A stretch of DNA of 64,000 nucleotides from Leptolyngbya sp. FACHB-8 (lineage in GTDB: Bacteria > Cyanobacteriota > Cyanobacteriia > Elainellales > Elainellaceae). The stretch lies in contig NZ_JACJOO010000087.1 of NCBI RefSeq assembly GCF_014695575.1, forward strand, positions 124,001 through 188,000, written 5' to 3'. The translations under genes and the position numbers were made by a program. The notes below the pieces were generated by a model. The model had not been told where the DNA came from. It searched no databases and was given only the letters and a program-made list of their open reading frames with translations. Positions 31,827-49,571 of the stretch are shown piece after piece (within the stretch, counting starts at the first letter, position 1; the number at the start of each line of letters is the position of its first letter).

Positions 31827-32696
31827 GGCCGCAGCCTACTAGCCCCTTTCCAGGGAAAGGGGGAGACTGAGCCAGAGAGCCGGTTTTTGCCTAGAGTAGG
31901 CCCATTTTCCAGTTCCCCCTCGTTTGAAAAAGGAGGTTGGGAGACTTTTCCGTACAGCCAGGCACTTGTGTATGTACAATGGACCCTTAAACATAGAGTA
32001 ATTTCTATTGCTTAACGCTAAGTTTGTGTATACAAGTTACACACAAACTTAAGGTTTTTAAAAATCACCTCGTATATTCTTCTGCAATAATTCTAAATAA
32101 TCTAAAGATATTTCTAAAGTCTAATTTTTCAGAGCTAAAGCAAAGACAAGTTAGCAGAATTTCTATAAGAAACTCAAGTTAATACTTAAGGAATTCAAAA
32201 GAATAACAGATTGATATTTACCGGTCTTTCAATTGATAGAGGCGGGAAATTTTAGTTGACTTGTATAATGCTGCTTGATTTTTGCCGTTGCCTATGATCC
32301 CCATTTCTCATGCCTCGGAGCGATTTGATTCGTTAAATTTGTAAAAAATTAAAGATCTATCATTGGGCAGGTTTAGTATTCGGTAGCACTGGCAATTCCT
32401 TCGAAATCGGCTTAGATTGTCACCAGAAAACCCGGGTTTTTGCCCTGGCTGATGCTTCATGAGATTCTATTCTCTCTGTTCGGCATAATTGCGCCGTCAT
32501 CTCCCATAAAATCCTCAAATTTCGACTTGCGATTTCAATGGATTCACACGATTAAGTCCGGCCAGATCTTTCGAACCGATGTGGCTATTGGGTAAGTGTT
32601 CATCCAGGGAAGTCGGTTTTACACACCGTCAGTCCCTTGCCTGATAGCCATGACATCGATATTCACAGCACAGTTGTCGTTGAGAGCAAACAGAAT

Positions 32697-35123
32697 ATGG
32701 TAGCTACTCCTGAGAGACCTACTCTTACTGGAAATCCTCTTTCTGAGGAAGAATTGCGCAAGACCCATGCCTACTGGCGAGCCTGCAATTACCTGGCCCT
32801 GGGCATGATCTATCTGAAAGGTAACCCGTTGCTGCGGGAGCCGTTGAAGGCTGAGCATGTGAAGAAGCGGTTGTTGGGACACTGGGGATCGAGCCCAGGC
32901 CTCAGCTTTATCTATGTCCATGCCAATCGCTTGATCAAAAAGTATGACCAGAACATGGTCTATGTGGCTGGTCCGGGGCACGGTGCTCCTGGATTTCTAG
33001 CTCCGGTTTATATGGAAGGCTCCTACTCGGAGATTTACCCGGATAAGAGCGAAGATATTGAAGGCATGTACAAGTTCTTCAAACAGTTCTCGTTCCCCGG
33101 TGGAATTGGAAGCCATGCTACTCCTGAAACTCCGGGCTCAATTCACGAAGGGGGGGAACTGGGGTACAGCCTCTCCCATTCCTATGGGATTGCGCTTGAT
33201 AACCCCGATCTCATTGTTCTGGGGGTTGTTGGAGATGGGGAAGCCGAAACGGGGCCGCTAGCAACCTCCTGGCATTCCAACAAGTTTATTAACCCAGCTC
33301 GGGATGGGGCTGTATTGCCGATCCTGCACTTAAACGGTTACAAGATTGCGAACCCCACGATCCTGGCGCGAATTAGCCATGATGAACTGGAGAGCTTGTT
33401 CCGGGGCTATGGCTACAAGCCTTATTTTGTAGAAGGTTCAGATCCGCAATACATGCACCAGGCAATGGCTGCGGCGATGGAATCGGCGGTGCAGGATATT
33501 CATGCTATTTGGCGTGAGGCTCGTTCTGAAGGGGTAACGCGTCGTCCTGAGTGGCCGATGATTATTCTGCGATCGCCCAAGGGCTGGACGGCTCCTGCTG
33601 AAATTGATGGACGGAAAGTGGAAGGGTTCTGGCGATCGCACCAGGTGCCCATGGCGGATCTGCAAACCAACCCGGCCCATGTGCAGGTATTGGAACAATG
33701 GTTACGCAGTTACGGACCGGAGGAACTGTTTGACCAGAACGGGACACTCATTCCGGAATTGAAGGATTTGGCTCCCGTAGGTCATCGCCGCATGGGCTCC
33801 AACCCCATTACCAATGGCGGCCTGGTGCGCAAAGAGCTACGAATGCCGAACTTCCGTGACTATGCCGTGGATGTGCCGAGCCCTGGCACCGTCGAGGCGG
33901 AGAATACAAAGCCTCTGGGGATCTTCCTGCGTGACATCATGAAGAACAACCCCACTAATTTCCGGATGATGGGGCCGGATGAAACGGCGTCGAATCGCCT
34001 GACAGCACCCTATGAGGTGACGAAGAAGACGTGGATGGCGGAGATGCTGCCGGAAGATTTGGATGGCAGTGAGCTAGCTCAAGATGGCCGCGTGATGGAG
34101 ATGTTGAGTGAGCATACCCTGGTGGGGTGGCTGGAAGGCTATCTGCTGTCAGGACGGCATGGCTTCTTCCATACCTACGAGGCGTTTGCCCATGTAATTA
34201 GTTCAATGTTCAACCAGCATGCGAAGTGGTTGGATATTTGCAAGCACCATGTGCCCTGGCGAGCTCCGGTGTCATCGTGGAACGTGTTGTTGTCGTCGAC
34301 GGTGTGGCGGCAGGATCACAACGGTTTCTCGCACCAGGATCCAGGTTTTGTGGATGTGGTGACGAATAAGGATCCCAGTGTGGTGCGGATCTATTTCCCG
34401 CCGGATGCGAACTGCTTGCTGTCGGTTGCTGATCACTGTTTCCGCAGTACCAATTACACAAATGTGATCGTGTCGGATAAGCAGAAGCACATGCAGTACC
34501 TCGATATTGAGCAGGCAATCAAGCACTGCACGAAGGGTGTGGGTATATGGGACTGGGCCTGCAATGATGATTGTGGAACTGAGCCTGATGAACCTGAGGT
34601 AGTAATGGCTTGCTGCGGAGATGTGCCGACTCGTGAGTCTCTTGCTGCGACAGGAATTTTGCGGGACGAGTTTCCTTACTTGAAGGTGCGATTTATTAAT
34701 GTGGTGGATTTGCTCACGTTGATGCCACAGGAGGAGCATCCGCACGGAATGTCGGAGCGGGAGTTTGATGCGTTGTTTACGCCGGATAAGCCGGTTATCT
34801 TTAACTTCCACGGGTACCCCTGGTTAATCCACAAGCTGACGTATCGGCGCACAAATCAGGATCGAATTCATGTGCGCGGTTATAAGGAGAAGGGGAATAT
34901 CAACACGCCGTTGGAGTTGGCGATTCGGAATAATGTCGATCGCTTTAGCCTGGTGATTGATGTGATCGATCGGGTGCCGAGTCTGGGATCGCGGGCGGCC
35001 CATGTGCGGGAACGCATGAAGAATGAGATCATCGATAACCTGAACTACGCCCATGAGTATGGGGCAGATAAGGATGAGATCACGCATTGGACGTGGCCGC
35101 ATGGCTCGTCGGCTTGCCCATAG
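32697..35123 (+). CDS. xfp: Phosphoketolase
   Basis: This thiamine-diphosphate enzyme splits xylulose-5-phosphate and/or fructose-6-phosphate to acetyl-phosphate plus glyceraldehyde-3-phosphate or erythrose-4-phosphate. Motifs: [39 protein letters not shown], the ThDP-binding [19 protein letters not shown], and the C-terminal WTWPHG. At 808 residues from ATG 32697 the length is normal; the frame's TTG-initiated extension to 32637 is not supported by a Shine-Dalgarno. In cyanobacteria the enzyme feeds acetyl-CoA and fermentation and bypasses decarboxylation by pyruvate dehydrogenase. The D-lactate dehydrogenase downstream supports a fermentative or overflow context. Followed by a 14-bp hairpin and a dispersed repeat. 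Confidence 0.96.
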
Positions 35124-35598: not shown

Positions 35599-36630
35599 AT
35601 GCGGGTCGCGTTCTTTAGTACTAAGCGGTACGATCGCATCTCTTTTGAATCTGCAAATACTAACCTCGGCCATGAGTTCACCTTTTTTGAACCCCGTTTA
35701 ACGAGCCAAACCGCTGCACTGGCGGCAGGCTTTCCCTGTGTCTGTGTCTTTATTAATGATGTGTTGGATGCCGAGGTGCTACGCATTCTGGCAGCGAATG
35801 GGACAAAGTTGATTGCGCTGCGGTCGGCGGGTTTTAATCACGTTGACCTGGAGGTAGCGGGGGAGTTGGGGCTTCATGTGGTGCGGGTACCGGCCTATTC
35901 ACCCTATGCGGTGGCGGAACATGCCGCAGGCTTGGTGCTAATGCTGAACCGTAAGCTGTATCGGGCTTATAACCGGGTGCGAGAGGATAATTTTTCACTG
36001 GATGGGTTATTAGGATTTGATTTGAATGGCAGCACCGTTGGGGTGATTGGTACGGGCAAAATTGGTCAGATTTTTGCTCGCATTATGCATGGGTTTGGTT
36101 GCCATTTGCTGGGCTATGATGCCTATCCTACAGACGCATTTAGTTCAATTGGAGATGCCCGGTATGTAGATCTGCCGGAGTTACTGGCAAATTCAGATAT
36201 CATTTCTCTGCATTGTCCACTGTTGCCGTCTACGCATCACATCATTCGGGCGGAGACGATCGCCCAAATGAAGCCAGGTATGATGCTGATCAACACGAGT
36301 CGGGGAGCGCTGGTCAACACGCGGGATGTGATTGATGGGATTAAGTCGGGGCAAATTGGCTACCTGGGTACCGATGTGTACGAGGAGGAAGCTGAATTAT
36401 TTTTTGAAGATTTGTCCGATACAGTTATCAAGGATGATACTTTCCAGTTGTTGCAGTCCTATTCCAATGTGGTGATTACGGCCCACCAGGCCTTTTTTAC
36501 CCGGAATGCGGTGGAGGCGATCGCCAATACCACTCTGCAAAATGTCACCGATATCGAACAGGGTCGCTCCTGTGCGAATGAGGTGAAGGCTGAGATGATC
36601 CCGGTTCCCATTTCAGCTTCCAAAGGGTAA
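35599..36630 (+). CDS. ddh: D-lactate dehydrogenase (2-hydroxyacid dehydrogenase family)
   Basis: The 343-residue protein carries the Rossmann motif [14 protein letters not shown] and the catalytic Arg ([11 protein letters not shown]), Glu (LGTDVYEEE) and His (TAHQAFFT) of D-2-hydroxyacid dehydrogenases, plus the N-terminal [10 protein letters not shown] typical of D-LDH. It reduces pyruvate to D-lactate with NAD(P)H. TTGGAGG lies about 7 bp before ATG 35599. Only 43 bp separate it from the large PstS-like/pseudo-phosphorylase gene downstream, so the genes from here through pgi may form one transcript. A role in dark fermentation fits the neighbouring phosphoketolase and glycogen genes. Confidence 0.92.
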
Positions 36631-36673: not shown

Positions 36674-39600
36674 ATGCTTTCATTGCCCCCTCTTCTGCTT
36701 GTCCTGCTGGCGCTTTTGCTCGCAGGAATTGTGGCGATCGCCCCCTTTTCCCCTGCTGCTGCTCAGGAAGAGCTCGCTGAACCGCCTACAGTGATTTTCC
36801 CGATGCCCTCGGCGGTGACGAATAGCACCACTGTGCGCATCGGCGGTTCGCCTCTGATGGCTCCTATCAATAAATCCTTAAAGCGCCAGTTTGAGGAGCA
36901 GTTTCCTGGCACGGAAGTGCAGATAGAGGACGGCCCCGACACAAGTACGGCCCTGCAGGCTGTACTCAATGGCGACCTGGATCTGGCGGCCATTAGTCGC
37001 CCGCTGACGGCTGAGGAGAAGGCTCAGGGGTTGCGCGTGATCCCGGTGAGCCAGGATAAAGTTGCCATTCTGATCAGCCAGGACAACCCTTTTAACGGCA
37101 GCCTGACCCTGGAGCAACTGGCCCAGGTTTTTCGGGGTGAGATTACAGATTGGGCGGAACTGGGCCGAGAACCGGGGTTGATTCGCATTGTGGATCGTCC
37201 TCCCATTAGCGAGACCCGTCTTGCTCTGGAGCGCTACAAGCTGTTTCCGGAGGGTGAGCTGCCCATAACTCTTAACCGGGTGCAGCTTGAACAAGATGAC
37301 ACTCAGGAGATGATCCGGGAGTTGGGGCGGAATGACATTGGCTATGCGATCGCCAATCAGGTTCGCAACCAACCCGCCGTTAAACCCATCAAAATTGCCA
37401 TTCTGCAAACGACGCTTCCGGGCGATGCCCTTTACCCCTACTCTCAAGTGCGGGGCTATGCCTATCGCGATGAGACCGATTCCAATGTGAAGTCGTTCCT
37501 GGGCTTCACCTCGACAGATGTGGGGCGAGATGCGATCGCCACGGCCCGTAAAGAAGAGGCCCGTGTGGCAACCCGTCCGGTGGTTGCTCCGGTAGCGGAA
37601 GCTCCTAACGAAGACGTAGCCACGCTTCCCCCGAGCGAACCGGCACCCGGCTTTTCTTTAGAAAAGGTTCCCGTGTGGGTCTGGTTCCTGGTTCCCGTTT
37701 TTCCACTCTTCCTTTTCCTGGCAGGTCTGTTACGGAGGCGGCCCCGTCGCACGCCCCAGCGGCCTCCAATAACCCGAAGAGCGGCCCAGGAGCGCACCCC
37801 TGTAGCAACCCCCGTTGAAGACGACGACATTCTGGACAACTGGGAAGAAGACGAGGCTCCTGCTACGGCTGAGGCTGTAGTGGATGAGGATTTAGAAGAC
37901 TGGGAAGAAGCCCAAATGGAGCCTTCGACCTCGGTTGAGGCTGCCGTAGATGAGGATTGGGAAAATTGGGAGGAATCCGAGGTTTTGGAACCTTCGGTTA
38001 CGGTTGAGGCTGCCGTGGATGAGGGTTCAGGCGGTCGGGAGGATGAAGAAGCTCCGGAACCTGTTGTCGTGCTGGAAGATATGCCGGCGGCCCCAGGTTT
38101 ATCTGTAACGTCAGAAACTCCATCGGTAGCAGAGGTAATGGGAGCTATTCCGGGCCTTTTCTCGCAGGGGATGGAGCTGTTTGAGGGCGATCGCTTTGAA
38201 GAAGCCCTGCCCTATTTCCAGCAAATCACTGAGCAGCAGCCCGATCGATCTGATGCCTGGGTGCTTCAGGGTCAAATTCTCCTGGCCCTGGAGCGGCTAC
38301 CCGAAGCTCTCGATGCCTTTGAGCAAAGCCTGGGGTTAGATCTGTCTCTGGAAGCTGCCTGGATTGGCAAGGGAGATGTCCTGACGCGCCTGGGTCGGAC
38401 TGAAGAAGCTCAGGCCAGTTATCAGCAAGCTGCAGAATTGGAAGCCGTACTGACGGAACCCAGCGAAGGGGAAGCTGTGGAGGCGATCGCCCCAACTCCC
38501 GAAGCTCCAGCTTCGCCTGTTCTCCACGACGCGATTGAAACAGCCGAACCCGCGTTGGCTCCCTCTGCTAAGGTGACAGAATTACTGACCGAAGAACCAT
38601 CCCCAAGCACTGAATCATTAACAGAACCAGTGGATGGCGTCTCAGAGCCAGCCATTCCTGAAGCGGTTGTTGAAGAACTCGTATCGACAATTGAATCAAC
38701 GACGGTCGAGGAATCATTGCCGACCCCCGACCCCATCGTGGTGGAGGCGAGCCAGCCTGAGGGGACGCCCATGATTTCGGAGCCTATGGCTGCCCCGAAA
38801 ATTCCTGAACCTGTAGTTGAGGAGCCTGCTGCTGAGCCTGTAACCCTTTTACCGGTTGATTCAGAAGTGATCGCGGCGTCTGAAATCCCAGAGTCTGGGG
38901 TTGAAGAAGCAACTCCTGAAGCGGTTGTCGAAGAACTGGTATCGACGATTGAGTCAACGACGGTCGAAGAACCATTGCCGATCCCTGAACCCATTGTGGT
39001 AGAGGCGAGCCAACCAGAAGGGACGCCCATTATTTCGGAGCCCATGGCTGCCCCAGAAATTCCTGAACCTGTGGTCGAGGAGCCTGCTGCTGAGCCTGTA
39101 ACCCTTTTACCCATTGATTCAGAAGTGATCGCGGCGTCTGAGATCTCAGAGCCTGGGGTTGAAGAAGCCGTTCCTGTGTGGGCGGCTGAAGCGATCGCCC
39201 CAGTTGCCCCAGCACCCCTAGAAGCAACCACGCTGCCCTCGCCAATCACAGCCGATGCGCTCAAACAGGCATTTCAGGAGCGGTTAAGAACCTATGGCAA
39301 AACCGTTCAGGGGGCTACTCCCAATGAGGCGTACCTGGCTCTGGCATCGGTTCTTTGCGATCACTTGCTAGAGCGCCGTACCCCTGAGGCTACGTTAATA
39401 GCGACCGATGGACGGCTGATTGCTCAACTCTCGGCAGAATACTTGCCCGGTCCTCATTTAAGAAATGCTCTCGTTAGTCTGGAATGTCTGGAAACCACCG
39501 AGCACGTTCTGGAAGACCTGGGGCTGCATCTAACCTCCCTGCTGCAACAGGAAGAAGAACCTGGCTTGGGGCGTGGCAACTTGGGACGGCTGATGATGGA

Positions 39601-41629
39601 TTACCTGGATTCTCTGGCAACTCAGGACGTTCCTGCCATTGGTTATGGCCTGCGCTACGAGTACGGCATTTTTGACCAGGAAATCCGGGATGGTTGGCAG
39701 GTTGAGGTGCCGGACAACTGGCTGCTATACGGCAACCCCTGGGAGGTGGAGCGGGGCGATCGCACCCTTACCATCCAATTCGGGGGCTACACCCAGTCCT
39801 ACACCGATGAACAGGGCCGTTATCGCGTCCGTTGGGTGGCCGCTCAGACGGTACAGGCCCAATGCTTCGATACGCCTGTTCCTGGTTATGCGACCGATAC
39901 CGTAAACCTGCTGCGTCTATGGCGAGCCAACACCGACGATAGCCTCTGCAAAGTTCTCTATCCTGTGAATGGAGAGGATCATGGTGCAAATTTGCGCTTG
40001 CGGCAGCAGTTCTTCCTGGTGTCCTGTGCAGTGCAGGATTTGCTGCGGATGCATCAGGAGAGCGGCCAACCCTGGGATGCATTACCCGATCGCCTTGCAC
40101 TTCATTTGAACGACACCGATACGTTGCTGGCGATTGCTGAACTGATGCGCCTCCTGGTGGACGTGCATGAGCTGGAGTGGGAGGCTGCCTGGGATCTCAC
40201 TCAACGTACCCTGACCTACAGCAACCACAGCCTCTTGCCCGAAGCTCTGGATGATTTCTGGTCGGTGGCGTTGTTTGAGGCGGAGTTACCCCGGCACTTG
40301 CAAATTATTTATGAGATCAATGCACGCTTTCTGGATGGGCTGCGATCGCAATTCTTCGATAATGCAAAAATTCAGCGCATGTCTTTGATTGGGGATGGGG
40401 CTGAACAACGGATTCGTCTCACTAATTTGGCCTGTATCGGTACGCATGCCGTCAATGGCGTCTCTCGTTTCCACACCCAGTTGTTAGAGCAACGGATCCT
40501 ACCAGATTTTTACAGTTACACCCCCGATCGCTTCCACACCATCACCAATGGCATGAGTCAACGGCGATTTTTGGCCGTAACCAACCCGCTGCTTGCGGAG
40601 CTGATTACGCGGGCGATCGGTCAGGATTGGTTGCGCAACCCTGAAGCATTGAGCCAGTTGGAGCCTCTGGCCAATGACGATGCTTTTTGTGCCCAGTGGC
40701 AACAGGTGAAACGAACCGGTAAGGAGAACCTGGCCGGTTGGATTCAGGAGCGTCTGGGACAGACCGTGAATCCAGATACTCTGTTTGATGGGCAGGCTAC
40801 GGTGATTCACGAATATAAGCGGCAACATCTGAATGTGCTGCATATCCTGACCCTCTACCATCGGCTCAAGACGGACCCTAATTTAGACATTCTGCCGCGC
40901 ACATTCCTGTTCAGTGGAAAAGCTTCCCCGGACTACACCATTGCCAAGTTGATGATCAAACTGATCACCACCGTGGCCGAGCGGATCAATACAGATCCAG
41001 ATGTAGCGGGACGGCTAACAGTACTATTCCTGCCCGACTTTACCCAAAAACTGGTTGAGGTCATTTATCCAGCGCTGGATCTATCCGAGCATCTCTCCCT
41101 GGCGGGAACAGAAGCGGCAGATACGGCCAACATGGCAGCGGTTCTTAATGGGGCATTGCTTATTGGTACCCCCGACGGCTCCAACCTGGAGCTTCAGGAG
41201 ATCCTGGGAGAAGGCAGTTTCTTCCCATTCGGTCTAACGGAGCCGGAAGCCCAGATGTTACAGGAGGAGGGCTATCGACCCTGGGAGATTTATGAGCGCA
41301 ATACCGAACTGAAAGCCGCAATTGATGCCTTTGTAGATGGCTCGCTAACGCCCTCTGATCCGCAACTATTCCGCCCTCTGGTAAGTCAGCTCCTGTCTCA
41401 AGATCCCTATCGGGTACTGGCAGACTACACCGCCTATACCGCTGCTCAAGAGCAGGTTGGCGATCTCTACCGCCAGCCCCTGACCTGGACTCGCCAATCG
41501 ATTCGAGCCGTGGCACGGATGGGTCGCTTCTCCAGCGATCGCGCCATCCAAACTTACCAACAAACCCTGTGGCAGGTGCAGCCTCGGGGCGATCGCCTGC
41601 ACCTGCTTACCTCCCCCCCTTATGGCTGA
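36674..41629 (+). CDS. PstS-like domain / membrane / TPR / inactive glycogen phosphorylase fusion
   Basis: Domains of the 1651-aa product: signal or anchor (1-31); PstS-like type 2 periplasmic-binding domain (~45-300; GSPLMAPINKSLKRQF, DLDLAAISRPL, VFRGEITDWAELG); transmembrane helix (~332-350) followed by Arg; three acidic D-x(4)-WEE repeats (~384-455); two to three TPRs (~491-592); an 86-residue Glu/Pro/Val repeat in two copies (~662-833); and a glycogen phosphorylase domain (~860-1651). The last aligns end to end with the intact GlgP at 47067, but the PLP lysine of NMKF is Ala1488 (NMAA) and GTGN is DTAN, NDTHPS is NDTDTL, NGGLGRL is RGNLGRL. It should bind rather than degrade glucan. Topology places the PstS part outside and the rest in the cytoplasm. 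A role in sensing phosphate or another ligand and glucan is inferred. The frame continues past its TGA (see next entry). Confidence 0.85.
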   Translation: MLSLPPLLLVLLALLLAGIVAIAPFSPAAAQEELAEPPTVIFPMPSAVTNSTTVRIGGSPLMAPINKSLKRQFEEQFPGTEVQIEDGPDTSTALQAVLNGDLDLAAISRPLTAEEKAQGLRVIPVSQDKVAILISQDNPFNGSLTLEQLAQVFRGEITDWAELGREPGLIRIVDRPPISETRLALERYKLFPEGELPITLNRVQLEQDDTQEMIRELGRNDIGYAIANQVRNQPAVKPIKIAILQTTLPGDALYPYSQVRGYAYRDETDSNVKSFLGFTSTDVGRDAIATARKEEARVATRPVVAPVAEAPNEDVATLPPSEPAPGFSLEKVPVWVWFLVPVFPLFLFLAGLLRRRPRRTPQRPPITRRAAQERTPVATPVEDDDILDNWEEDEAPATAEAVVDEDLEDWEEAQMEPSTSVEAAVDEDWENWEESEVLEPSVTVEAAVDEGSGGREDEEAPEPVVVLEDMPAAPGLSVTSETPSVAEVMGAIPGLFSQGMELFEGDRFEEALPYFQQITEQQPDRSDAWVLQGQILLALERLPEALDAFEQSLGLDLSLEAAWIGKGDVLTRLGRTEEAQASYQQAAELEAVLTEPSEGEAVEAIAPTPEAPASPVLHDAIETAEPALAPSAKVTELLTEEPSPSTESLTEPVDGVSEPAIPEAVVEELVSTIESTTVEESLPTPDPIVVEASQPEGTPMISEPMAAPKIPEPVVEEPAAEPVTLLPVDSEVIAASEIPESGVEEATPEAVVEELVSTIESTTVEEPLPIPEPIVVEASQPEGTPIISEPMAAPEIPEPVVEEPAAEPVTLLPIDSEVIAASEISEPGVEEAVPVWAAEAIAPVAPAPLEATTLPSPITADALKQAFQERLRTYGKTVQGATPNEAYLALASVLCDHLLERRTPEATLIATDGRLIAQLSAEYLPGPHLRNALVSLECLETTEHVLEDLGLHLTSLLQQEEEPGLGRGNLGRLMMDYLDSLATQDVPAIGYGLRYEYGIFDQEIRDGWQVEVPDNWLLYGNPWEVERGDRTLTIQFGGYTQSYTDEQGRYRVRWVAAQTVQAQCFDTPVPGYATDTVNLLRLWRANTDDSLCKVLYPVNGEDHGANLRLRQQFFLVSCAVQDLLRMHQESGQPWDALPDRLALHLNDTDTLLAIAELMRLLVDVHELEWEAAWDLTQRTLTYSNHSLLPEALDDFWSVALFEAELPRHLQIIYEINARFLDGLRSQFFDNAKIQRMSLIGDGAEQRIRLTNLACIGTHAVNGVSRFHTQLLEQRILPDFYSYTPDRFHTITNGMSQRRFLAVTNPLLAELITRAIGQDWLRNPEALSQLEPLANDDAFCAQWQQVKRTGKENLAGWIQERLGQTVNPDTLFDGQATVIHEYKRQHLNVLHILTLYHRLKTDPNLDILPRTFLFSGKASPDYTIAKLMIKLITTVAERINTDPDVAGRLTVLFLPDFTQKLVEVIYPALDLSEHLSLAGTEAADTANMAAVLNGALLIGTPDGSNLELQEILGEGSFFPFGLTEPEAQMLQEEGYRPWEIYERNTELKAAIDAFVDGSLTPSDPQLFRPLVSQLLSQDPYRVLADYTAYTAAQEQVGDLYRQPLTWTRQSIRAVARMGRFSSDRAIQTYQQTLWQVQPRGDRLHLLTSPPYG
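38657..39172 (+). repeat. 258-bp direct tandem duplication inside the fusion gene
   Basis: Two adjacent 258-bp units (38657-38914 and 38915-39172), highly similar in nucleotides, encode 86-residue Glu/Pro-rich copies starting PEAVVEELVSTIESTT. The repeat preserves frame and lies in the linker before the phosphorylase domain. Confidence 0.9.
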
Positions 41630-42106
41630 CTGGCAGAACCCCCCGCCCCCAAGGCACAACCGGCAGACGTTGCTGATACTCCCCTGCCCCTGCTCGAACC
41701 CCTTCCAGTAGAACCAACCCCGGCTTCTCCACCCTCTACACGCCTGACGATTAACAGTCAACAAAACTGCTACGTTCTAGAACCTGACCTGATGCAGCAG
41801 TTAGAACAAACTGCTGTATCCAAAAACCTATCTTCGGGCCGTTACCAAATCCGCATTCATGGTGGAGGGTTTGGGTATCGGGCTGGGGAAGCAAGCGAAC
41901 CCATCGTGATGCTCTGGATCTATGGGGGGCGCTTTGTGAATCAGGATACGGGGGTTGAAGTGGAGGCTACCTGGGTTACCCTCAACGGCTATGACGATAC
42001 ACTTACCCTGGAGGTTCTGGAATCTATTACTGTCGCGGCCTTTTTCTTTGATGTTCATCGGGAGGATAATGAGGGCGAACTGACATTGGCCTTCACCCGG
42101 CTGTAG
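41630..42106 (+). pseudogene. In-frame continuation of the preceding gene beyond one TGA: shared C-terminal domain
   Basis: The TGA at 41627-41629 is followed, in the same frame and without another stop, by 158 codons to TAG 42106. After a Pro/Ala linker this part encodes a domain (LMQQLEQTAVSKNLSSGRYQ, VMLWIYGGRFVNQ, TWVTLNGYDDTLTLEVLE, DNEGELTLAFT) that is homologous to the C-terminus of the next gene. Without the TGA the gene would run 36674-42106 (about 1810 residues). It is therefore a nonsense-split gene, a readthrough product or a sequencing error. A start at ATG 41792 without a Shine-Dalgarno would give only the isolated domain. The domain's function is unknown; the pattern suggests a beta-sandwich. 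Confidence 0.8.
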
Positions 42107-45114: not shown

Positions 45115-46701
45115 ATGGACCCAACCCAACTGTGGCAACGTTACCAGGACTGGCTCTACTATCATTCCGGCCTGGGCATATACCTGGACATCAGCCGGAT
45201 GCGGTTTGATGCCTCCCTGGTCGAGTCCCTCACGCCTAAATTTGAGAAAGCCTTCGCAGATATGGAGGCACTAGAGGCAGGGGCGATCGCCAACCCCGAC
45301 GAAGAGCGTATGGTTGGCCACTACTGGCTGCGGGATTCTGACCGCGCCCCCTCTCCTGAGCTAAAGCAGGCGATTGAAGACGGCCTTATTCAAATCGAGG
45401 AATTTGCCCGCAAAGTTCACAGCGGCGAGATCAAGCCCCCCGAAGCCGATCGCTTCACCGATTTGCTCTCGGTGGGTATTGGTGGCTCGGCTCTGGGCCC
45501 TGAGTTCGTTGCGGAAGCCCTGGCTCCCCTGAACGCTCCCATGCGGGTTCACTTTATCGATAACACCGACCCCGCCGGGATCGATCGGGTCATGACCCTG
45601 TTAAAGGATCAGCTCAAGAGCACCCTGGTACTCGTAACCACCAAATCTGGCGGCACCCCCGAGACGCGGAACGGCATGTTGGAGGTCAAGAACGTCTTTG
45701 ACCAGGCCGGGCTTAACTTCCCAGCCCATGCGATCGCCGTCACCATGCAGGGCAGCACGATGGACAAGTTCGCCAGCGATCAGCGCTGGTTGGCGGAGTT
45801 TCCCATGTTTGATTGGGTAGGCGGTCGCACCTCCGAAATGTCTGCTGTGGGTCTGCTTCCCGCCGTCCTCCAGGGTATCGACATCCGCACCATGCTGGCC
45901 GGGGCCGCCGAGATGGACGAAGCCACCCGCGCCAAAGACCTGAAGCAAAACCCTGCCGCTCTGCTGGCTTTGGCCTGGTATGCCTCCGGCAATGGCAAAG
46001 GGGAAAAGGACATGGTGATTCTGCCCTACAAAGACAGCTTGTTGCTCTTCAGCCGCTATCTCCAGCAGTTGATCATGGAATCCCTGGGCAAAGAGCTGGA
46101 TCTGGACGGTAACAAGGTCTACCAGGGCATCGCCGTCTATGGCAACAAAGGCTCCACCGACCAACACGCCTACGTGCAGCAACTCCGGGAAGGCGTTCCT
46201 AACTTCTTCGCCACCTTCATCGAAGTGCTCGAAGACCGCGACGGCCCCTCCATCGAAGTGGAGACCGGAGCCACCTCCGGCGATTTCCTCTCTGGCTTCT
46301 ATCAGGGCACGCGTCAAGCCCTCTACGAGAATGGCCGGGGCTCCGTCACCATCACCATTCCCACCGTCAACCCCCGCATCGTGGGCGCATTGATCGCTCT
46401 ATACGAACGGGCCGTGGGCTTCTACGCTTCCCTGGTCAACATCAACGCCTACCACCAACCCGGTGTAGAAGCCGGCAAGAAAGCCGCTGCCTCTATCCTC
46501 GACTTACAGCGCAAAGTCGTAGACGTTGTGAAAGCGACTGGGCAACCCCTCGATCTGGCTACCCTGGCTGAGAAAGTGGGCGCAGGCGATCGCATCGAAT
46601 CCATCTACCTGATTCTGCGACACCTGGAGGCTAACAAGCGCGGCGTGGTATTAGAGGGCGATCGCGCCAAACCCGCTACCCTAACCGTTAGTGCCGGTTA
46701 G
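45115..46701 (+). CDS. pgi: Glucose-6-phosphate isomerase
   Basis: [36 protein letters not shown], the catalytic Glu segment [12 protein letters not shown]-like region, [11 protein letters not shown] and a Lys-containing C-terminal region identify Pgi. The length of 528 residues fits cyanobacterial enzymes. It interconverts glucose-6-phosphate and fructose-6-phosphate and links glycogen breakdown to glycolysis and the oxidative pentose-phosphate pathway. GAGGTG lies 5 bp before ATG 45115. Position directly after the PstS-like gene (36 bp) suggests it is the last gene of an operon running from D-LDH. It is followed by dispersed repeat Z and a palindrome. Confidence 0.97.
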
Positions 46702-46975: not shown

Positions 46976-47066
46976 GCGTAAGTTCTAATTCCCCTTTCGG
47001 ATCGCAAAACAATCGAATTCGCTTTGGCTGACGGCCTTGCCCACGTCCATTCCAGAGGAACCCCCG

Positions 47067-49571
47067 ATGACCGCATCCATCAACCCCTCCACCCTCACCA
47101 CCGCTGGCATCCAAGACGATCGCACCGGCCTCCACACGGAAACCCTCAAACGCGCCTTTCTAGACAATCTTTACTACATCCAGGGCAAACTCTCCTCCGA
47201 CGCCACCCCCATCGATCACTACTTGGCCCTCGCCTATACTGTGCGCGATCGCCTCATTCAACGCTGGCTCAGCACTGGCCAAACCATGTGCCGCTCCACT
47301 ACCAAAATTGTTGGCTACCTCTCCGCTGAATTCCTCGTCGGCCCCCACCTCGCCAACAACCTGATCAACCTCGATATCTACGATCCCGTCAAGCAGGCGA
47401 TCGAAGAACTGGGGCTAAGCCTGAAAGAAATCATCAACACCGAAGAAGAACCCGGCCTCGGCAACGGCGGATTGGGACGCCTCGCCGCCTGCTATATGGA
47501 CTCCCTCTCCACCCTCCAAGTCCCCGCCATTGGCTATGGCATTCGCTACGAATTCGGCATCTTCGACCAGGAAATTAAGGACGGTTGGCAGGTCGAAATC
47601 ACCGACAAGTGGTTGAAATACGGCAACCCCTGGGAGATCGCCCGCCCCCAGGAAGCCATTGAAGTTAAATTAGGCGGCTATACCGAAAGCTACACTGACG
47701 AGCAGCAACGCTACCGGGTGCGCTGGGTTCCAAAACTCACCGTCGCGGGCATTCCTTACGACACCCCCATTCTGGGCTACAAAGTCAACACCGCCAACAC
47801 TCTGCGCCTCTGGAAAGCTGAATCTCCTGAAGCCTTTGACTTTAGAGCCTTTAACCAGGGAGATTACTGGGGAGCCGTTCACGCTAAAGTCATTTCAGAA
47901 AACATTACCAAGGTGCTGTACCCCAACGATGAGCAAATTCAGGGGAAACAACTGCGCCTGGAACAACAATTCTTCTTCGTCTCCTGCTCCCTGCAAGATG
48001 TAATCCGAAGGCATTTGAACTGTGGGCGCACCCTCGACACCCTGCCCGACAAATTTGCCTTGCAGATGAACGACACTCACCCGTCGATCGCCGTTGCCGA
48101 ACTGATGCGGCTTCTGGTGGACGAGCACCTGATGAATTGGGACGCTGCCTGGGACATTACCACCCGTACCCTCGGCTTTACCAACCACACCCTGCTACCC
48201 GAAGCCCTGGAAAAGTGGCCCGTTGCCCTGTTTGGAGAAATGCTGCCCCGGCATCTGGAAATTATCTATGAAATTAACCGCCGCTTCCTGGATCAGGTGC
48301 GTATGAAGTATCCCGGCGACGTTGGGAAGGTCATGCACGTCTCCTTAATTGATGAAAGTGGCCCCCGTTACGTGCGTATGGCTAACCTCGCCTGTGTGGG
48401 CAGCCATGCTATCAACGGCGTTGCTGCCCTTCACTCGGAACTGCTCAAGAAAACGGTTCTGCACGACTTCTACGACCTGATGCCAGAGAAGTTTAGCAAC
48501 AAAACCAATGGTGTCACCCCCCGTCGCTGGATTGCCGAGAGCAATCCCGGTCTGGCTCGTTTACTAACCCGTCAGATGGGGAGCGATCGCTGGCTCACCC
48601 ATCTCAGCGACTTGCGCCAGATGGAGGGCTCTGCCGATGACCCTGGTTTTCGCAACGAATGGCGCGGAGTTAAACGTGACCTGAAGCAAAATCTGGCTGG
48701 CTACATTGCACAGCGTACTGGCATTGCCGTTAATCCTGACTCGATGTTCGACGTTCAGGTGAAACGCCTCCACGAGTACAAGCGGCAACACCTGAATGTG
48801 CTGCATATTATTACGCTCTATACCCGTCTCAAAGACAATCCCAATATGGAGATGACGCCGCGCACCTGTATTTTTGGTGGCAAAGCGGCTCCAGGTTATG
48901 CCATGGCAAAGCTGATCATCCGGCTTATTAATGCTGTTGGGGAAGTGGTGAATCGCGATCCGGATGTGGGCGATCGCCTCAAAGTCGTCTTCATTCCTGA
49001 CTATAACGTCAGTTTAGGCCAACGTATTTATCCGGCTGCTGACCTCTCCGAACAAATCTCCCTGGCTGGTCTGGAGGCCTCTGGCACTGGCAACATGAAG
49101 TTCTCGATGAATGGCGCACTCACTATTGGCACTCTAGATGGAGCCAATGTAGAAATTCGCGAAGAAGTGGGCGAAGATAACTTCTTCTTGTTTGGCATGA
49201 AAATTGAGGAAGTCGCTGCTCTCCGGGCCCAGGGCTACCGTCCTCAGGACTATTACACCAGCAACCCTATACTGAAACGGGTTATTGATTTAATTGCCAC
49301 TGGCCACTTCTCTCAGGGAGATAGCAGTCTGTTTCGTCCGCTAGTGGATAATTTACTCTCATCCGACCCTTATATGCTTTTGGCAGATTACCAGTCCTAT
49401 ATTGAGTGTCAGGATCGGGTTAGCGCCGCTTACTTGAATAACGACGACTGGACACGGATGTCAATCTTGAACACAACACGGATGGGTAAGTTTTCGAGCG
49501 ATCGCTCCATCCAGGAATATTGTCATGACATCTGGAAAGCCTCTCCAGTCCCCGTCGAACTACACGACTGA
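47067..49571 (+). CDS. glgP: Glycogen phosphorylase
   Basis: An intact 834-residue GT35 enzyme: PGLGNGGLGRLAACYMDSL, QMNDTHPSIAVAELMRLL, KTNGVTPRRW, VKRLHEYKRQHLN, GGKAAPGYAMAK and the PLP-lysine site GTGNMKFSMNGALTIGT (Lys678). It phosphorolyses alpha-1,4-glucan to glucose-1-phosphate. AGAGGAA precedes ATG 47067 by about 7 bp; the extension to 47037 is not needed. No N-terminal phosphorylation or allosteric extension is visible. It follows pgi on the same strand and precedes phosphoglycerate mutase, giving a block for glycogen catabolism. It is the catalytic counterpart of the inactive domain encoded at 36674-41629, and the two probably share ancestry by duplication. Confidence 0.97.
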   Translation: MTASINPSTLTTAGIQDDRTGLHTETLKRAFLDNLYYIQGKLSSDATPIDHYLALAYTVRDRLIQRWLSTGQTMCRSTTKIVGYLSAEFLVGPHLANNLINLDIYDPVKQAIEELGLSLKEIINTEEEPGLGNGGLGRLAACYMDSLSTLQVPAIGYGIRYEFGIFDQEIKDGWQVEITDKWLKYGNPWEIARPQEAIEVKLGGYTESYTDEQQRYRVRWVPKLTVAGIPYDTPILGYKVNTANTLRLWKAESPEAFDFRAFNQGDYWGAVHAKVISENITKVLYPNDEQIQGKQLRLEQQFFFVSCSLQDVIRRHLNCGRTLDTLPDKFALQMNDTHPSIAVAELMRLLVDEHLMNWDAAWDITTRTLGFTNHTLLPEALEKWPVALFGEMLPRHLEIIYEINRRFLDQVRMKYPGDVGKVMHVSLIDESGPRYVRMANLACVGSHAINGVAALHSELLKKTVLHDFYDLMPEKFSNKTNGVTPRRWIAESNPGLARLLTRQMGSDRWLTHLSDLRQMEGSADDPGFRNEWRGVKRDLKQNLAGYIAQRTGIAVNPDSMFDVQVKRLHEYKRQHLNVLHIITLYTRLKDNPNMEMTPRTCIFGGKAAPGYAMAKLIIRLINAVGEVVNRDPDVGDRLKVVFIPDYNVSLGQRIYPAADLSEQISLAGLEASGTGNMKFSMNGALTIGTLDGANVEIREEVGEDNFFLFGMKIEEVAALRAQGYRPQDYYTSNPILKRVIDLIATGHFSQGDSSLFRPLVDNLLSSDPYMLLADYQSYIECQDRVSAAYLNNDDWTRMSILNTTRMGKFSSDRSIQEYCHDIWKASPVPVELHD

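Follow-up and report, generated by a model that had tools for sequence, protein, structure and literature searches.

A membrane-anchored PstS-like protein fused to a predicted pseudo-phosphorylase in Leptolyngbya and other cyanobacteria

Introduction

Binding-protein-fused receptors and receptor pseudoenzymes are known types of membrane protein, as exemplified by the BvgS-type Venus-flytrap sensor kinases and the pseudokinase receptors, respectively. Among binding proteins, Escherichia coli PstS contacts phosphate through T10, F11, S38, D56, R135, S139, G140 and T141 (PMC10846223). In muscle phosphorylase, residues 248-260 form the 250' loop and residues 261-276 the tower helix, with antiparallel tower helices providing one of two dimer contacts (PMC10116597). 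The DNA analysed here (the window) is a 64,000-nucleotide stretch of Leptolyngbya sp. FACHB-8 (contig NZ_JACJOO010000087.1, positions 124,001 to 188,000). An earlier sequence-only reading of this stretch had noted a gene in which a PstS-like domain is joined through a membrane helix to an inactive glycogen phosphorylase, and had known of no earlier description of such a fusion. Neither a catalytically dead glycogen phosphorylase nor one joined to a membrane receptor turned up in a literature search of incomplete coverage.

Results

Architecture of the fusion protein

Translation of the fusion gene (Table 1) revealed no internal stop. The presence of a PstS-like domain, a membrane helix, acidic repeats, TPRs and a phosphorylase domain in one reading frame, as originally proposed, was confirmed by Pfam and hydropathy analyses. 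The order of the parts is signal peptide, PstS-like domain, transmembrane (TM) helix, acidic linker, TPRs, acidic repeats and pseudo-phosphorylase. A PBP_like_2 match covered residues 49-279 (9.8e-27). Homology to GT35 was evident from scores of 851 bits for Phosphorylase (PF00343; cut-off 27) and 884 bits for TIGR02093 (cut-off 552.9). Six basic residues occur on the C-terminal side of the TM helix, so that the C-terminal part is predicted to be cytoplasmic and the PstS-like domain to lie outside. TPRs were detected in the window's fusion but not, at Pfam thresholds, in the orthologues at four other loci (i.e. L035, L036, L038 and L119), and are hence not a constant part of the architecture.

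Table 1. Positions in the window of the fusion gene, its parts and neighbouring genes
Feature	Position	Strand	Basis
Phosphoketolase gene xfp	32637..35123	+	Pfam
D-2-hydroxyacid (lactate-type) dehydrogenase gene (ldh), 44 bp upstream of the fusion	35599..36630	+	Pfam
Fusion gene, 1651 aa	36674..41629	+	ORF, translation; orthologues known
Signal peptide, residues 1-30	36674..36763	+	Hydropathy (7-25), sequence
PstS-like extracytoplasmic domain, residues 49-291	36818..37546	+	Pfam, homology, model
Single TM helix, residues 334-352	37673..37729	+	Hydropathy
TPR repeats, residues about 498-590	38165..38443	+	Pfam
Acidic/proline-rich linker with duplicated segment	38444..39238	+	Sequence
Pseudo-phosphorylase domain, residues 861-1635, GT35, TIGR02093	39254..41578	+	Pfam, NCBIfam, alignment
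Deletion point of ~20 residues, near residue 1087	39929..39937	+	Alignment with rabbit sequence
Catalytic Lys568-Arg569 position, Thr1376-Val1377	40799..40804	+	Alignment
PLP-lysine (Lys680) position, Ala1488	41135..41137	+	Alignment
Small beta-domain protein	41633..42106	+	Sequence, model
Second PstS-like, TM, disordered, beta-domain protein, 960 aa	42196..45078	+	Pfam, sequence
Glucose-6-phosphate isomerase gene pgi	45115..46701	+	Named from sequence, no domain scan
Intact glgP, Lys680 kept	47037..49571	+	Pfam, NCBIfam, alignment

Distribution and origin of the fusion

Fusions were called by score, reading frame and context among 390 sampled cyanobacterial genomes and were found in 16 of these, the window's own included, in two families. 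The orthologues in the 15 other genomes are about 1220-1620 aa in length and derive from the same family and a second family; carriers include Filamentous cyanobacterium LEGE 07170, Tildeniella nuda, Pegethrix bostrychoides, Cyanobacteria bacterium RM1_2_2 and an Oscillatoriophycideae groundwater MAG. A search of other cyanobacteria had been suggested by the sequence-only reading, for which absence from all relatives would have pointed to an assembly artefact; the orthologous fusions in 15 further genomes rule out that explanation. A tree built from 107 GlgP and 16 fusion sequences placed the latter in one clade (support 1.0) nested among the GlgPs. Two of the 16 fusion rows in the alignment come from the window's own gene, in pieces; 15 fusions were used for the column comparison. 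Three candidates from other bacteria were rejected: the match in a Gammaproteobacteria MAG (L083) is a standalone GlgP with xfp on its contig, and two long open frames from Acidobacteria (L095 and L110) keep Lys680 and are not such fusions.

Loss of catalytic and dimer-contact residues

The PLP lysine was replaced by Ala, Met or Ile in 16/16 aligned fusions and was present in 107/107 GlgPs; the assignment of Ala1488 to this position in the window's protein was borne out by the alignment. In the column comparison, Lys568 was lost from 15/15 and Arg569 from 13/15 fusions, with Lys574 being kept in 14/15. His341 was replaced by Asp and Asn133 by Arg or Lys in all 15, fixed derived states that fit a new role rather than decay. 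A region equivalent to rabbit residues of about 251-270, comprising the greater part of the 250' loop and of the tower helix, was absent from 15/15 fusions, so that the earlier description of a complete phosphorylase domain was wrong. Out of 223 columns with at least 97% conservation in GlgP, 146 were kept in at least 90% of the fusions and 22 were lost, many of the latter being PLP/phosphate positions or part of the tower helix. Of the features that mark an active GT35 enzyme, the window's fusion lacks Lys680, Lys568/Arg569 and the tower helix/250' loop. Pairwise dN/dS values for this domain were 0.08-0.12 among the fusions; a value of about 0.1 indicates purifying selection and, with the loss being common to the whole clade, rules out a recent pseudogene. 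Judged from these alignments, the phosphorylase domain is a maintained pseudoenzyme whose loss of catalytic residues is family-wide and ancient.

Retention was also observed at the sugar site. E88, L136, D339, H377, N484 and E672 were invariant in 15/15 fusions (column comparison), and of these His377, Asn484 and Glu672 keep the glucosyl unit in place in muscle phosphorylase. At the rabbit sugar site, Asn284 was not kept, Tyr573 varied and Ser674/Gly675 were often changed, indicating that the site is not intact. This residue pattern fits a domain in which sugar may still be held and phosphorolysis is impossible. PLP-free catalysis by the fusion domain, i.e. hydrolysis or transfer on glucan, could draw on the invariant Glu672, Asp339 and His377 and on the Asp at position 341 as a fixed new acid; however, the PLP phosphate is required for GT35 chemistry, Lys568 has been lost, as has Arg569 in most cases, and no precedent is known to us, making such an activity very improbable.

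Regulation through heterodimerisation is a frequent role of dead paralogues of oligomeric enzymes. Heterodimerisation of the pseudoenzyme with GlgP would conform to this common role, and GlgP is also present in nearly all of the fusion genomes searched. The tower helix, however, which makes up one of the two principal contacts of the dimer (PMC10116597), is deleted in all fusions examined, making a simple heterodimer with GlgP less likely. Additionally, no GlgP was detected in the near-complete (99%) genome G025 (locus L122), where the fusion was the only phosphorylase homologue found; this argues against an obligate GlgP partner, with an assembly gap being possible. A GlgP heterodimer is, on both counts, quite unlikely. 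The sequence-only reading had the pseudoenzyme binding either glucan or GlgP: several retained sugar-site residues are compatible with the former, whereas the latter is weakened by the deleted tower helix and by G025.

The outer domain and its ligand

The nearest solved relative of the outer domain was Sll0540 of Synechocystis (PDB 9l8j; E 4.5e-42), whose entry is titled as a putative phosphate-binding protein. A model of the outer domain (pLDDT 78) matched PstS structures with Z-scores of 15-25 (25.1 for 9l8j), consistent with a PstS fold. Scores of the fusion against the NCBIfam PstS models fell below the cut-offs (68.5 versus 206.6 bits for TIGR02136 and 15.2 versus 205 bits for TIGR00975). 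The SGT phosphate loop reads S-Glu-T in the window's fusion (DRPPISETR), and Asp or Glu replaces the Gly (i.e. Gly140) in every membrane-anchored PstS-like member examined; the ordinary PstS of the same genome keeps SGT. A motif scan of the fetched loci yielded 59 examples and none with Gly, a count that is biased by the R-P motif required and by overlapping loci that repeat genes. With an acidic side chain in the anion loop, phosphate becomes a less likely ligand. The outer domain contains many invariant residues, has dN/dS values of about 0.12-0.21 and keeps the Arg, Ser and Thr of the former ligand site, suggesting that the pocket is still selected. Any ligand of the outer domain is probably other than phosphate. 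In the fusion of G025, the PstS-like domain seems to be truncated at the N-terminus. The literature on Sll0540 and DUF4912, a domain of related proteins described below, gave no functional lead.

These observations bear on the model of the sequence-only reading, in which phosphate was the obvious candidate ligand and a phosphate sensor tuned GlgP. The predicted PstS fold accords with this model, as do the use of phosphate by GlgP and the encoding of an active GlgP nearby in the window. Structure prediction upheld the PstS fold of the outer domain. Against the model, the Gly of the phosphate loop is replaced, and the L121/L122 lineage was the only one in which canonical PstS-like genes adjoined the fusion. 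A phosphate sensor is improbable given the altered loop.

A wider family of membrane-anchored PstS-like proteins

In this cyanobacterial group, many genomes encode several proteins of the PstS-like type (600-1700 aa). The same outer domain was combined with DUF4912 repeats at seven loci (i.e. L139, L221, L222, L225, L227, L229 and L232), with WD40 repeats also occurring in one, and with a long coiled coil containing helix-hairpin-helix motifs at an eighth (L223). Other members of the family end in low-complexity tails. The fusion has the features of this family (i.e. an S-Asp/Glu-T loop, one TM helix and a variable cytoplasmic part) and is one member of a modular set of predicted membrane-anchored PstS-like proteins.

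A pure scaffold, in which the outer domain would have given up ligand binding and serve only as an anchor while the dead phosphorylase, TPRs or linkers and beta domains bring fermentation enzymes and glycogen together at the membrane, is possible though unlikely. The phosphate loop is altered across the membrane-anchored family, the cytoplasmic parts of paralogues resemble adaptors (i.e. DUF4912 arrays and a coiled coil with helix-hairpin-helix motifs) and the presence of TPRs is variable, all of which a scaffold would accommodate; the many invariant residues, low dN/dS and retained Arg, Ser and Thr of the outer domain count against a mere anchor.

Operon partners and the beta domain

The fusion gene, the small beta-domain gene and the second PstS-like gene form a three-gene unit that was absent from the sequence-only reading; the beta domain of the small protein recurs at the end of the second PstS-like protein. 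The same order was observed at six other loci (i.e. L117, L119, L123, L125, L217 and L218), and the fusion usually heads an operon with the small beta and PstS-TM-beta genes. The first ATG of the small beta gene is at 41792, whereas its conserved N-terminus is encoded ahead of this ATG (41740-41791) and has no standard start codon; a rare start codon, a frameshift or an error in sequencing within 41622-41800 of the window may account for this. The frame of this gene is that of the fusion continued past the TGA at 41627-41629. An ATG at 41622 overlaps the fusion stop in another frame and is followed by a C-rich run.

The beta domain (about 115 aa) was present in 50/390 cyanobacteria, mostly as a small/long pair and often without the fusion. 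No family for this domain was found in Pfam or NCBIfam; its model was all beta (pLDDT 85) and had no PDB match above Z 7. A tandem pair of beta domains was also seen in long coiled-coil-like proteins that are repetitive and have no PstS domain (L213:2089-5508 and L214:11704-14241).

Metabolic neighbourhood

The three-gene unit of the window is flanked by xfp and ldh upstream and by pgi, glgP and gpm downstream, all in the same orientation. The glgP gene begins 5.4 kb downstream of the fusion, as the sequence-only reading had it, and is intact. The arrangement xfp-ldh-fusion-beta is kept in LEGE 07170 (L115). Genes for transaldolase (tal) and acetate kinase (ackA) adjoin the fusion in Tildeniella (L037), and ackA adjoins the fusion in genome G309 (L216), with an aldolase gene (fba) some 8 kb on. 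The Tildeniella transaldolase carries C-terminal EF hands (L037:14613-15791). In G171 (L219), a genome of another family, the order is xfp, PstS/TM (383 aa), PstS/TM/DUF4912/beta, ldh and glgP; a PstS/TM protein without the dead phosphorylase here occupies the place of the fusion in the same neighbourhood. The beta pair (L206 and L207) has glgC and a GH1 gene adjoining it in G170 and an alpha-amylase gene within about 4 kb in G182. Among the loci examined, only some have carbohydrate genes next to them, other lineages being without such neighbours, and the neighbour set was picked after viewing the loci, so that this evidence is supportive only. With this proviso, the proposed link to glycogen and sugar-phosphate genes is supported by the neighbours in the window and in several lineages.

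Discussion

The reading that we favour, with a probability of roughly 0.4, is that the fusion spans the membrane once and serves as a receptor or scaffold, its dead phosphorylase holding alpha-glucan. The two-lobed PstS-like domain would bind a small ligand, probably not phosphate, in the periplasm or lumen. On the inner side, the dead phosphorylase, having kept part of its glucan-holding side without PLP, the catalytic and phosphate-binding residues or the tower helix, would act as a non-catalytic binding module for alpha-glucan or malto-oligosaccharide. The receptor and its beta-domain partners would thereby be connected with glycogen and with the enzymes channelling it into phosphoketolase, lactate and glycolysis, and an outside cue, or the membrane alone, would be coupled to fermentation and the breakdown of glycogen. 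For the fusion, the binding of glucan, the binding of a ligand and any regulatory output are what we infer. A phosphate sensor, a GlgP heterodimer and residual catalysis are all less likely than this receptor or scaffold. A more far-reaching proposal, tentative and rather unlikely, is that of a cyanobacterial transmembrane receptor family with a PLP-free, tower-less glucan sensor derived from a glycogen phosphorylase, in which an external signal and the glycogen state would be read in one molecule and passed to phosphoketolase and fermentation enzymes.

Binding of glucan by the dead domain, if it occurs, would link an outside cue directly, at the molecular level, to the main carbon store of these cyanobacteria, and such a link, if true, would bear on the control of glycogen breakdown and dark fermentation. 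The sequence features of the fusion suggest that an enzyme has been repurposed to sense stored sugar or to serve as a docking module for it. Members of the large membrane-anchored PstS-like family to which the fusion belongs are likely to be taken for phosphate-transporter parts despite the changed phosphate loop.

Cyanobacterial GlgP (GT35, PDB 9wvu) and muscle phosphorylase share homology with the fusion over the whole domain and several sugar-site residues, and the fusion is nested in the GlgP tree; unlike GlgP, however, the fusion has no PLP lysine, no Lys568 and usually no Arg569, has Asp in place of His341, lacks the tower helix and is tethered to the membrane. Sll0540 (9l8j) and PstS resemble the outer domain in fold and sequence, whereas the fusion has an S-Asp/Glu-T loop rather than SGT and continues into a TM helix and cytoplasmic domains. 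The PstS-TM-DUF4912 proteins (e.g. L139, 1094 aa, C95 in the window's own genome) share the S-Asp/Glu-T loop, one TM helix and a proline-rich linker, but their cytoplasmic part consists of DUF4912 repeats where the fusion has a phosphorylase. As in BvgS-type and pseudokinase receptors, a domain of the binding-protein type is coupled across the membrane to an enzyme-derived domain; unlike these receptors, the fusion contains no kinase or cyclase, its inner part being a dead glucan phosphorylase.
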